A stretch of DNA of 35,535 nt from an uncultured Clostridia bacterium (GTDB taxonomy: Bacteria; Bacillota; Clostridia; TANB77; CAG-508): the NCBI GenBank assembly GCA_944389655.1, contig CALXND010000010.1:1-35535 (forward strand), given 5' to 3'. Shown piece by piece: positions 20,018 to 24,490 of the stretch. A program made the position numbers and the translations under genes. A model generated the notes under the pieces. It was not told where the DNA came from. It was given only the letters and a program-made list of their open reading frames with translations, and made no database searches. How positions within the stretch are numbered: the first letter of the stretch is position 1; each line of letters begins with the position of its first letter.

Positions 20018-21304
20018 TTATTTTATATGTTTTAGGTTCTTTACATCTTCTATTATTTTTTGTATGTTTAAACTATTAAATTTTCTATTCTCCATTAAAA
20101 TTTTTCCATTTACTATTGTCGTTTCAACACTAGTACCCGAAGTATTATATACCAAATTTGAAATTATATTATTATTTGGAAATATTTTTATATTGTCTAA
20201 TTTTGGTTCAGTATTTACAATAATTATATCTGCCTTTTTTCCGACTTCTATACTTCCAATTTCATTATCTAATCCAACTATTTTGGCTCCACCTATTGTT
20301 GCCATTTTGATTATCTCTTTAGCACCAATTCTTTCTTCATTTTCATGAATGCCCCCTTGTGCAAGAGCTGCTATTTTCATTGTTTCAAACATATCTAAGT
20401 TATTTCCTGAACCTTGTCCATCTGTTCCTAAGCCAATGTTTATTCCTTCTTTAGAATATTTAGTTATGTCTGCAATCTTACATCCTAATCTAAAGTTTGA
20501 TATAGGATTGTGTGAAATTCCACATTTCATTTCTTTTAATTCTTTTAAATCATAACTGTTTAATTTTACTCCATGTGCTAAAATAGTATGAATTCCTGCA
20601 AAATGTTGTTTTAAAACATTTATAGCTAAATCATTGTGCTTTTCACGTATATCATCTATTTCATTTATACTTTCTAAAAAGTGTATATGTATTGGCAAAT
20701 TATATTCTAATGCCAACTTTCTTGAAATTTCTAATAATTCATCTGAGCAAGTATATAAGCTATGTGGTGCAACTGAATATGTTATTAAACTATTGTTGTT
20801 GTCTCTAGTTTCATATAATTTTTTAAATTCTTGTATTCTCTTATTGGATTCTTTTTCTCCATCATTATCCATTAATACTCTAGTTATTGTTGCTCTTATT
20901 TTAGTATCTTCTACTGCTTTTCTTATGCTTTCTGATATAAAATAATGATCATTTACATATGTAGTCCCTGTTGATAGCATTTCTACTATTGAAAGCATGC
21001 TCGCATTATATACTTGTTCTTCTGTTAAATGTTCTTCTATCGGCCAAACCTTATCATTAAGCCATGTATATAAATTACAGCCTTCAAATGTAGCTCTAAA
21101 TAAGCTCATTGCTATGTGGGCATGTGTATTTACTAGGCCTGGCATTATTACTTTATTTGTGGCATTTATAGTTTTTTCGCCTTTTATTGGTTCTATTTTT
21201 TCTGCTATTCTCTCTATATTATCGTTTTTTATTCGTACATCTAGTTTTTTTATTTTCACATCTCCATCTTCAAAAATTAAAACTTTACCGTTTTTTATAA
21301 GCAT
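20018..21304 (-). CDS. mtaD: 5-methylthioadenosine/S-adenosylhomocysteine deaminase-like amidohydrolase
   Basis: 428 residues of the TrzA/AtzA/MtaD amidohydrolase family, cytosolic, metal-dependent. The metal-binding THAH is at residues 60-63, followed by HIHFLES, LAHGV and the Asp-bearing GTDGQGSGN. The substrate-loop SVAPHSLYTC also fits. Family members with this layout deaminate methylthioadenosine or SAH to the inosine forms, but chlorohydrolases and guanine-type deaminases share the fold, so the substrate is inferred. Length is normal. ATG behind AAAGGAG with a 7-nt gap. Own promoter; no operon partners. Confidence 0.85.
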   Translation of the reverse strand: MLIKNGKVLIFEDGDVKIKKLDVRIKNDNIERIAEKIEPIKGEKTINATNKVIMPGLVNTHAHIAMSLFRATFEGCNLYTWLNDKVWPIEEHLTEEQVYNASMLSIVEMLSTGTTYVNDHYFISESIRKAVEDTKIRATITRVLMDNDGEKESNKRIQEFKKLYETRDNNNSLITYSVAPHSLYTCSDELLEISRKLALEYNLPIHIHFLESINEIDDIREKHNDLAINVLKQHFAGIHTILAHGVKLNSYDLKELKEMKCGISHNPISNFRLGCKIADITKYSKEGINIGLGTDGQGSGNNLDMFETMKIAALAQGGIHENEERIGAKEIIKMATIGGAKIVGLDNEIGSIEVGKKADIIIVNTEPKLDNIKIFPNNNIISNLVYNTSGTSVETTIVNGKILMENRKFNSLNIQKIIEDVKNLKHIK

Positions 21305-21338
21305 TAAACCACTCCTTTGTACAAATATTTATGCTATT

Positions 21339-21367
21339 ATTATACATTTTTAGCTAGCTAATTGCAA
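21339..21367 (-). promoter_or_regulatory. Sigma-A promoter of the amidohydrolase gene
   Basis: On the minus strand TTGCAA (21367-21362), a 17-bp spacer and TATAAT (21344-21339). Confidence 0.65.
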
Positions 21368-21380
21368 TCAATATATAATA

Positions 21381-21473
21381 AAAAATCGTCTTGAATTTTA
21401 TATATGAATTTCAGTTTGCAAATTTTTTATTAAATTTGAATATAAATTGAAATTCCTATTTAAGACGATTTTT
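21381..21473 (-). terminator. Long terminator hairpin after the pilin-like genes
   Basis: An outer perfect 12-bp stem (21381-21392 / 21462-21473) ends in a T-run on both strands. Inside it, an AT-rich second stem with an 8-bp arm (GAATTTCA / TGAAATTC) makes the whole a 93-nt structure. It lies 53 nt after the second pilin-like gene's stop. Confidence 0.7.
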
Positions 21474-21526
21474 TACATTTTTTAGACACTGATATGTTAT
21501 TTAATAATTTATTATTCTATCTAATT

Positions 21527-22576
21527 TTATAATTTGTTTTTTTTGAGAATTGTAAATGTACCATCTGGTTGTTTTTCAAGTTTAATTTCAGATTTTAAGC
21601 AAACTATAGGACGAAGTCCCTGAAGGTTGTGGCTATATTCATTTGTACCTAAATCACCATTATAGTCTACATTCATAATAAAATCTTTGCTGTAATCCGA
21701 AGGCGATGCTATCCACATTGAAGTAGTTTTGCTTGTATTGGGCTTAATATAAATTTCATTATAATCGTTTGCCACTCCATTTTGTCCATAGTCCCACGAG
21801 CCCCCATACCATCTTATTTGATATCCATTGGAATTTATATTTCCACATTCTAAGTATTTACTTTGGTGAGTATCTTTATATGATTCACAATACATCTCTA
21901 GTGTTGGCCCTCCTATTGCATATTCTGCATCTTCTCCTGCATATGTACTCCAGATGTTTGTGTCCATCATATATGCAGTTGCTTTTATATTTTCGTTTGT
22001 ATTTTCTTCATATTTTTCTAAATATTGATTTAGCCATTTTATTCCTTTGCTATTTTCTTTTATATATTTCGCACCTCCTGAATAATCATTTATTACATTG
22101 TTAAAGCTTATTTGATAATCGCTATCTCCTTTTGTCACAGGTGTTCCGTTTTTTCCATTGGGTGCTTTATCGTAAGATATATAATCATCTGCAATTAGAT
22201 ATATATTACTATTATCTGCATAGAATATTCTCCATTTTTGCACTCCATTATTTTCACACTCATATCCTTTTACTTCTGCTCCATAATATCTTTTTGCATA
22301 TTTAGCTATATCTTGCGAACTCATTGGTACCGACAATTGCATTTCCCCATCTTCTTTTATAACATTTGTATATTCTTCTAATATAGAATTCATCTTCTTT
22401 TCATCTTCAAATGTAACATTTGCTGTTGTGTCACTCGCTTTTTTTGATTGTGAAGCTATTCCTCCATCCCCTAATACCATATTTATAGTGGCTGTAGATA
22501 TTATTATTATTACCACTATGGCTATACTTAAAGTTAATAGTGTTACACCTTTATTTATTCGTGCCTTTAATTTCAT
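21527..22576 (-). CDS. Pilin-like secreted protein 2
   Basis: 349 residues. A basic N-terminus (KARINKGVTLLTLSIAIV) gives a prepilin-like KG|VTLLTL cleavage motif followed by a hydrophobic helix, but position +5 is Thr rather than the usual Glu. Then a short charged linker and a globular extracellular domain containing MWIASPSDY...GLRPIVCLKSE, which resembles DUF6273/C-type-lectin-like C-termini of surface proteins. It lies 21 nt after its paralogue, and residues from about KGYECENNG to IKPNTSK are identical between them. The C-terminal 50 residues differ strongly. Role in adhesion or pilus assembly is inferred; no pilus ATPase or prepilin peptidase is in the window. Confidence 0.75.
   Translation of the reverse strand: MKLKARINKGVTLLTLSIAIVVIIIISTATINMVLGDGGIASQSKKASDTTANVTFEDEKKMNSILEEYTNVIKEDGEMQLSVPMSSQDIAKYAKRYYGAEVKGYECENNGVQKWRIFYADNSNIYLIADDYISYDKAPNGKNGTPVTKGDSDYQISFNNVINDYSGGAKYIKENSKGIKWLNQYLEKYEENTNENIKATAYMMDTNIWSTYAGEDAEYAIGGPTLEMYCESYKDTHQSKYLECGNINSNGYQIRWYGGSWDYGQNGVANDYNEIYIKPNTSKTTSMWIASPSDYSKDFIMNVDYNGDLGTNEYSHNLQGLRPIVCLKSEIKLEKQPDGTFTILKKNKL
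21732..22276. repeat. Direct repeat copy 1 of 2 (545 bp, inside pilin-like gene 2)
   Basis: By eye 544 of 545 positions match 22791-23335 (offset 1,059); the only difference is C at 21803 versus T at 22862, a synonymous change. Sequence on both sides diverges abruptly, with many synonymous differences. Confidence 0.93.
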
Positions 22577-22597
22577 ATACTCACTTCCTTTGTTATT

Positions 22598-23641
22598 TTA
22601 TTCTATTATTTTTAAGCTCCCATCAGATTGACTCTGAAGTATAGTTTCAGATTTTAAACAAACTATTGGGCGAAAACCATAGCCCTTACCATTATAATAA
22701 TATGATTCTATACTATTACTATAATATCCTCCCATTAAATTGGTATTATTATAGTCCGAAGGCGAAGCAATCCACATTGCAGCAGCTTTACTTGTATTGG
22801 GCTTAATATAAATTTCATTATAATCGTTTGCCACTCCATTTTGTCCATAGTCCCACGAGCCTCCATACCATCTTATTTGATATCCATTGGAATTTATATT
22901 TCCACATTCTAAGTATTTACTTTGGTGAGTATCTTTATATGATTCACAATACATCTCTAGTGTTGGCCCTCCTATTGCATATTCTGCATCTTCTCCTGCA
23001 TATGTACTCCAGATGTTTGTGTCCATCATATATGCAGTTGCTTTTATATTTTCGTTTGTATTTTCTTCATATTTTTCTAAATATTGATTTAGCCATTTTA
23101 TTCCTTTGCTATTTTCTTTTATATATTTCGCACCTCCTGAATAATCATTTATTACATTGTTAAAGCTTATTTGATAATCGCTATCTCCTTTTGTCACAGG
23201 TGTTCCGTTTTTTCCATTGGGTGCTTTATCGTAAGATATATAATCATCTGCAATTAGATATATATTACTATTATCTGCATAGAATATTCTCCATTTTTGC
23301 ACTCCATTATTTTCACACTCATATCCTTTTACTTCCGCTCCATAGTATTTGCCCGCATCTTTAGATATTTCTTTTGAGCTCATTGGCACTGTTATTTTAC
23401 TTATACTATCTTCTGACATTGTTTGAGAGTATTCTTCTGTTAAACTGTTCATAAGCTGGTCTTCTTTGTTAATTTTGTTTATCGCTATGCTATTTTTCTT
23501 TTGTGCTTGTGATACTAAGCCGTTATCACCTAATGTCATATTTATAGTAACACTTGAAAGAATTATTAATATAATTATTGTTATTCCCAATGTAAGTAAT
23601 GTAACACCTTTCTCACTATTTTTTTTCGTTTTTACATTCAT
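22598..23641 (-). CDS. Pilin-like secreted protein 1
   Basis: 347 residues. The prepilin-like motif SEKGVTLLTLGITI with hydrophobic helix is followed by VTINMTLGDNGLVSQAQ, a common start in secreted pilin-like proteins of uncultured Clostridia. As in its paralogue, Glu at +5 is missing. The globular domain is shared with protein 2 and ends with its own variable loop (NNTNLMGGYYSN, then YYYNGKGYGFRPIVCLKSE). First gene of the pair, expressed from a promoter 100 nt upstream, with GGAGG before the ATG. Likely surface exposed; ligand unknown. Confidence 0.75.
   Translation of the reverse strand: MNVKTKKNSEKGVTLLTLGITIIILIILSSVTINMTLGDNGLVSQAQKKNSIAINKINKEDQLMNSLTEEYSQTMSEDSISKITVPMSSKEISKDAGKYYGAEVKGYECENNGVQKWRIFYADNSNIYLIADDYISYDKAPNGKNGTPVTKGDSDYQISFNNVINDYSGGAKYIKENSKGIKWLNQYLEKYEENTNENIKATAYMMDTNIWSTYAGEDAEYAIGGPTLEMYCESYKDTHQSKYLECGNINSNGYQIRWYGGSWDYGQNGVANDYNEIYIKPNTSKAAAMWIASPSDYNNTNLMGGYYSNSIESYYYNGKGYGFRPIVCLKSETILQSQSDGSLKIIE
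22791..23335. repeat. Direct repeat copy 2 of 2 (545 bp, inside pilin-like gene 1)
   Basis: Partner of 21732-22276. The block lies in frame inside both genes and points to recent gene conversion or unequal crossover within the tandem pair. Confidence 0.93.
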
Positions 23642-23737
23642 TTATATTTTTCCTCCGTTCTTCCATAAAATATTATGCTTTTGTCAATTTTATTTATATT
23701 TATGCTTAATTTACATCTTCACCTTTACATTGATTTT

Positions 23738-23766
23738 ATTTTATATTAACTACTGTTATTTTGCAA
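23738..23766 (-). promoter_or_regulatory. Promoter of the pilin-like pair
   Basis: On the minus strand TTGCAA (23766-23761), a 17-bp spacer and TAAAAT (23743-23738). This leaves about a 90-nt leader. Confidence 0.5.
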
Positions 23767-24490
23767 TACCTTTTTATTATTCTTTTCACTTATAATTAAT
23801 TTTAATTTTTTTCACTTTTTAAGAATAATACAAATAAATGTCGTGAGCAAACCAACTAAAGATTATTAAATACTCACGACATTTCATATAAAACTAATAT
23901 TAATCTCCAGCTAAAACTAATATACCTAATTTATAACCTAACACATATTACTATGTGAATAAGCTAATTCACCAAATATATTAATCAGTCGCTCGACTAC
24001 AAATGCACTCATAATAACCATATTCATCCTCGTGGGACTAATAACAACTATTATTAAATACAAGAATAATCTTAACTTTGAATATATTACATATGTTCCA
24101 ACCATACTTATTTAATTATATCTACAAAATAAAATTAAATAAATATAATTTTGTACAGCTTACGCACAAATAATATACTCTCATCGCCGACATATAATAA
24201 TATAAGGTCATTACACTATTATACATCTTTGCTCGAACAATATAAAACATTATATTTAACATCTTATATTACTCTTAGTTCAACTAATATTAATCTTATA
24301 CTAGTATTATGCTCGATTATTTTTTTATTATTCATAAATTTTTAAAATTTTTTTACAGCACAATTGTATTTAATAGAAATTTATAAGCAATTTATATGTA
24401 TATTTTTTGTTACAGGACAATGATTTTATTTTAATATTCTGCTGAAATCCTAATAAAATGTATATTTTTCAAATATAATTTTTTAAAATA
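23767..24490. other. Long AT-rich spacer between divergent genes
   Basis: About 720 nt with no gene I can support. A perfect 12-bp stem (23836-23847 / 23873-23884, loop 25) with the unusual GC-containing arm GTCGTGAG is the clearest structure. Smaller dyads follow (CACATA/TATGTG near 23941, AGTCG/CGACT near 23988), and AATATTA-like words recur. A 64-codon frame at 24151-24345 lacks a ribosome binding site and family features. The stretch could hold a small RNA, regulatory DNA or a decayed gene. Confidence 0.5.

Follow-up and report, generated by a model that had tools for sequence, protein, structure and literature searches.

A tandem gene pair with a near-identical core and diverged tips, related to DGR targets, in an uncultured gut Clostridia bacterium

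The tandem pair and its family

The window, that is, the whole stretch of 35,535 nucleotides that was analysed, is contig C10 from the assembly of an uncultured Clostridia bacterium (1.43 Mb in 85 contigs, 96% complete); C-numbers below denote contigs of the same assembly. Two tandem open reading frames lie on its reverse strand. The first, g2 (22598-23641), encodes 347 aa with an N-terminal hydrophobic helix and a C-terminal, predicted C-type-lectin-like (CLec-like) domain. Its tandem paralogue g1 (21527-22576), 21 bp downstream, encodes 349 aa, and the two proteins are 74% identical. Each gene has a diverged 5′ end encoding helix and linker (22277-22576 in g1, 23336-23641 in g2), a 545-bp core (21732-22276 and 22791-23335) and a diverged 3′ end (21527-21731 and 22598-22790). 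The tip lies within the latter and aligns to the variable repeat of a diversity-generating retroelement (DGR) in paralogues (21605-21721 in g1, 22664-22780 in g2). The original prediction placed a hydrophobic helix at the N-terminus and a variable stretch ahead of RPIVCLKSE, and both are found there. A promoter and terminator scan of 21300-24000 was not informative (25 promoter-like sites, compared with 19.2 in shuffles; no terminators). Elsewhere in the window, positions 280-2064 encode a protein with tandem acidic repeats (DPDIDDNPNDDE), the C-terminus of which carries PQTGMN and a hydrophobic tail that we take to be a sorting-signal-like end.

Neither g1 nor g2 matched a Pfam or NCBIfam model above cut-off, a PDB sequence search gave a single match at E 0.5, and no Foldseek match to the domain model reached E 0.001. 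The AlphaFold2 model of the C-terminal domain of g2 had a mean pLDDT of 97.7. In VIA-align, the 35 rows shown were mostly C-type lectins or PvdO/CarF/sulfoxide-synthase-type folds at modest Z scores of 2.3-8.5, among which the N-terminal portion of the IgA peptidase from Thomasclavelia ramosa scored best (Z 8.5, rmsd 4.0, 169 residues). A C-type-lectin-like fold is tentatively predicted for the C-terminal domain.

Paralogues in the same genome share 46-60% protein identity. Further members were located on C1, C4, C44 (two), C80 and C11, while other loci share the N-terminal helix only. Some match was obtained in 43 of the 56 genomes searched (own genome included), most among the matches listed being to the helix only, and the strongest C-terminal-domain matches outside the own genome were in genomes G011 and G012. 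Scanning genome_contigs yielded 83 relatives, of which 80 were kept; these belong to uncultured Clostridia, many labelled as gut metagenome bins. A phage origin was considered and rejected, as a scan of viral_contigs gave nine pattern matches and no relatives, and PHROGs matches were weak (best E 0.016).

The description of the genes as pilin-like could be sustained only in part. Type IV pilins have a glycine-cleaved hydrophobic helix with a glutamate at +5, and the KG ahead of the helix is as in prepilins. The helix motif is present in g1 and g2, and the genome encodes a PF01478 prepilin peptidase on C7 and, twice on C50, PF00437 (T2SSE-family ATPase). However, the helix after KG reads VTLLT, with threonine at +5 and no glutamate, and no pilin family of Pfam or NCBIfam was matched by either protein at E up to 1. 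Pilin membership is putative. Since the +5 glutamate is absent and the pilin models are unmatched despite the peptidase and ATPases, we regard surface display of g1 and g2 as plausible and grade it no higher.

DGR templates and targets in the same genome

The template TR2 was first met as a weak match of the whole-protein search in the own genome. It lies at C26:18205-18342 as a version of the tip rich in asparagine (MWLASPSANNNNNLMNANYDGNVNNNNYNNNNPGLRPL), immediately after a gene that resembles Avd by two matches short of the curated cut-offs (PF22296, E 1.3e-9; NF033474, E 5.6e-12). C26 thus provides a template repeat together with Avd in this genome, and TR2 itself does not fit the window pair. 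Four paralogues, on C1, C4, C44 and C80, carry the tip as a DGR variable repeat. Their mismatches to TR2 fell on 19/38 adenines versus 5/77 other bases for C1, 15/38 versus 4/77 for C4a, 17/38 versus 1/77 for C44a and 24/38 versus 6/77 for C80 (Fisher P from 9e-6 to 6e-10). By the same test, the family members C44b, C11 and C4b showed no adenine bias against TR2.

No reverse transcriptase (RT) adjoins TR2 on C26, and this Avd-TR2 cassette (L032 4182-4733) would be invisible to surveys that start at the RT gene. Because TR2 fits variable repeats on four other contigs while RT is absent beside it, the RT would be elsewhere, unassembled or recently lost. The only RVT_1 gene over cut-off in the own genome lies on C35, in a second DGR (L030 6576-8165) with its own Avd and TR1; the RT frame there is open for 271 aa, versus 343 aa in the closest relative, G006. 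A candidate TR1 target on C16 (L236) is 84% identical to TR1, and its mismatches had no significant adenine bias over the whole 161-base alignment (14/55 versus 18/106, P 0.14). C4 and the end of C26 have 182 identical bases in common. Reading frames break within the variable region on C80 (L028 203-339) and in the relatives L154, L170, L177, L179, L184, L187 and L188; insertions and deletions from retrohoming, or errors in a consensus built from mixed variants, may account for these breaks.

A complete homologous locus was found in a relative. L166 (CALXQA010000113.1) has the order target, MutS-like gene, Avd and TR, with RT on the other strand, and its target departs from its own TR at 19/37 adenines and 0/78 other bases. 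The label MutS-like is one that we presume for the small gene beside the target, both here (L166 717-1202) and at L026 5899-6336. Four further loci of relative G056, to which L166 also belongs, ranged from a bias weaker than that of L166 (L161, 18/37 versus 11/78; L156, 19/37 versus 18/78), through one barely there (L163, 21/37 versus 27/78, P 0.02), to none (L180, 18/37 versus 29/77).

These results make the earlier reading of the variable loop as surface-antigen diversification the less likely one: the tip corresponds to a DGR variable region in the paralogues, and the pair itself is without a DGR signature. Since the tip corresponds to the DGR variable region of same-genome paralogues, we propose it as a candidate ligand-binding face, which is more likely than an antigen. 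Antigenic switching should not be concluded just because a uniform core carries a variable tip.

The near-identical core and the diverged tips

The original prediction of a near-identical block between sharply diverged gene ends, synonymous sites included, was confirmed on both counts. At a fixed offset of 1059, positions 21732-22276 match 22791-23335 over 545 bp with one synonymous mismatch (21803/22862), which leaves identical runs of 71 and 473 bases. Over the 181 codons of the core, dN between g1 and g2 is 0 and dS is 0.010, compared with dN 0.46 and dS 1.19 over the 5′ 100 codons and dN 0.39 and dS 1.07 over the 3′ 64 codons. With low dS in one segment beside high dS on both sides, selection at the protein level would be no explanation. 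Between g1 and g2, as many as 157 consecutive codons are identical, a run matched in 0/1000 codon shuffles. It was also the longest among the 97 within-genome family pairs compared, which came from 37 segments hand-picked from ten genomes out of 77 extracted family segments; the runner-up had 58 codons. Apart from the window pair, runs of 12-58 codons occurred in 24/96 pairs (at least 12 codons in 25/97 when it is included), and these may represent conversion or conserved stretches. Alignment A2 holds 44 of the 77 family segments and the two window proteins; segments left out of these sets were excluded manually because their frames were broken, because they were short or distant, or because they were single in their own genome. 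The homogenised core of the pair is unusually clear.

Recent gene conversion of the core, as first proposed, is the best explanation of the dS contrast, the block and the 157-codon run, although it is drawn from one assembly. We consider it likely that g1 and g2 are old tandem paralogues, that their core was recently gene-converted and that their tips were not lately overwritten from TR2.

It is quite unlikely that the block is an assembly artefact, with a single real copy, or two diverged copies, wrongly joined by the short-read assembler. The assembly is in 85 contigs and other family repeats lie at or near contig ends (C1, C2, C44, C80 and C26), but both copies of the block are within one contig, with four distinct flanks and the mismatch at 21803/22862. 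Furthermore, an assembler merges nearly identical copies only, so near-identity would be required even under an artefact.

Another explanation is that the whole gene was recently duplicated and that both ends were then swapped by recombination with other paralogues. Helix-less cassettes and fragments that might have served are present: the C44a frame opens right after the C44b stop without an export helix, partial copies lie downstream of the C1 and C80 genes, and there is a fragment at C4. Ends replaced from lost donors would also be expected to give the same pattern. However, neither g1 nor g2 has an exact match longer than 26 bases to the other family loci compared, and a DNA search with the g2 3′ end gave 83% over 42 bases as its best match outside the pair and nothing long outside the family. 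We judge this course of events very unlikely.

A search for silent cassettes elsewhere had been suggested. Helix-less truncated copies do exist, yet no copy could be recognised as a recent donor to the pair; as donor cassettes for g1 and g2 they were rejected, with no long shared tract and exact matches of at most 26 bases across the family loci compared. Cassettes that donated sequence, as in switching of the pilE/pilS type, were not found within this assembly, and donors could be unassembled. The helix-less CLec cassette at L027 9300-10082 has a variable region that fits TR2 at every non-adenine base except one. A stretch of 138 bases is identical between C1 and C80, running from the 3′ end of the variable region into the beginning of the partial copy that follows, which indicates that recombination or duplication is active elsewhere in the family.

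A two-tier system is also conceivable, in which a DGR writes tips into sister genes and helix-less cassettes while recombination spreads cores and tips, the pair included; we hold it to be highly doubtful. TR2-Avd would then be served by a distant RT, error-prone retrohoming would make the variants and gene conversion would distribute them. If it were true that recombination moves DGR-made tips between paralogues, gut commensals would cheaply combine mutation and shuffling.

The remaining alternative is that g1 and g2 are active DGR targets, with tips recently rewritten from TR2 or an unseen template. The two genes are in the same family as the four TR2-fitting genes, the tip begins where the identical block ends, and g1 and g2 differ at 15/16 of the TR2 asparagine codons versus 7/22 of the others (P 1.3e-4), a contrast that is weaker inside the loop alone (others 5/8, P 0.09). 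It follows from the counts of 15/16 and 7/22 that largely the same face varies in g1 and g2; the contrast would also fit ancient DGR activity in the pair. Against active targeting, neither tip (TR2 peptide match 44% for g1, 46% for g2) behaves as a variable repeat: mismatches to TR2 fell on 15/38 adenines versus 25/77 other bases in g1 (P 0.3) and on 12/37 versus 34/76 in g2 (P 0.93). Counted by codon position, independently of any template, tip differences between g1 and g2 were 15, 12 and 20, versus 12, 13 and 2 between the true targets C1 and C44a, and a template of AAY codons would not yield differences that are most frequent at third positions. The tip flanks WIASPS and RPIVCL differ at synonymous sites too. 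Searches of the own genome with the whole protein and the TR2 peptide list C26 only as template; with these and the g2 3′ end no third template for the pair was found there, although one may lie in an assembly gap. On the absent adenine bias and the codon-position spectrum, we rejected a recent rewriting of these tips by a DGR, and active targeting is thus extremely improbable.

Returning to gene conversion of the core, we propose the following course of events. The genes g1 and g2 would be old tandem paralogues, members of a CLec-like protein family of uncultured gut Clostridia that is probably exported. Homologous recombination would have copied one core onto the other, making the cores recently identical, and the conversion tract would have ended where similarity dropped, in one direction at the linker and in the other where the tip starts. 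In four sister genes this tip segment is rewritten by a DGR (TR2 and Avd on C26), whose homing is mutagenic at adenines of the template. The pair keeps its scaffold, and largely also its varied positions, in common with these genes, but its tips would have diverged over a long time by ordinary substitution and undergone no recent overwriting from TR2. Judged from their sequences, g1 and g2 are best regarded as old relatives of DGR targets and not as recent targets.

Comparison with known systems

Antigenic variation by pilE/pilS in Neisseria involves a pilin export helix, recombination between paralogues and truncated cassettes. The present family is similar in its pilin-like helix, its paralogue recombination and the truncated cassettes elsewhere in the genome. 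In contrast to pilE/pilS, no donor cassette can be recognised in this genome, and it is the core that has been homogenised. In the open-access literature, we found nothing joining gene conversion with pilins, tandem genes and C-type lectins, and nothing joining DGRs with type IV pili, Firmicutes and surface.

Treponema TvpA and Bordetella phage Mtd are DGR variable proteins with CLec domains. Like DGR variable proteins, the family has a predicted C-terminal CLec-like scaffold, variation limited to a C-terminal segment and, in same-genome homologues, pairs of template and variable repeats; unlike them, the window pair is without adenine-linked variation and without a matching template. Conservation of the CLec domain in DGR variable proteins is stated in the available portions of PMC5006420 and PMC6328139.

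Leftover and remote DGR targets have been described in Treponema denticola, as far as the accessible text of PMC4891356 goes. Similar to those leftovers, target-family genes persist here apart from, or without, a core DGR. In that text, adenine mutations relative to a known type of TR gave a leftover target away, whereas the window pair has none; the homogenised core of the pair is a further difference from the leftovers presented there. In Thiohalocapsa PB-PSB1, the part of PMC10907252 at hand reports dispersed targets, incomplete DGR loci and trans activity inferred from matches between variable and template repeats, as well as intragenomic duplication and recombination among DGR loci. The genome studied here is alike in all of these respects, while that part of PMC10907252 describes for Thiohalocapsa PB-PSB1 no pair of tandem genes in which a uniform core goes with old tips of non-DGR character.

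In conclusion, leftover targets and incomplete DGRs are already known, and the family is what is new here. One small genome contains one predicted CLec-like scaffold in three states: rewritten by a DGR, as a helix-less cassette, and with a homogenised core outside the DGR.
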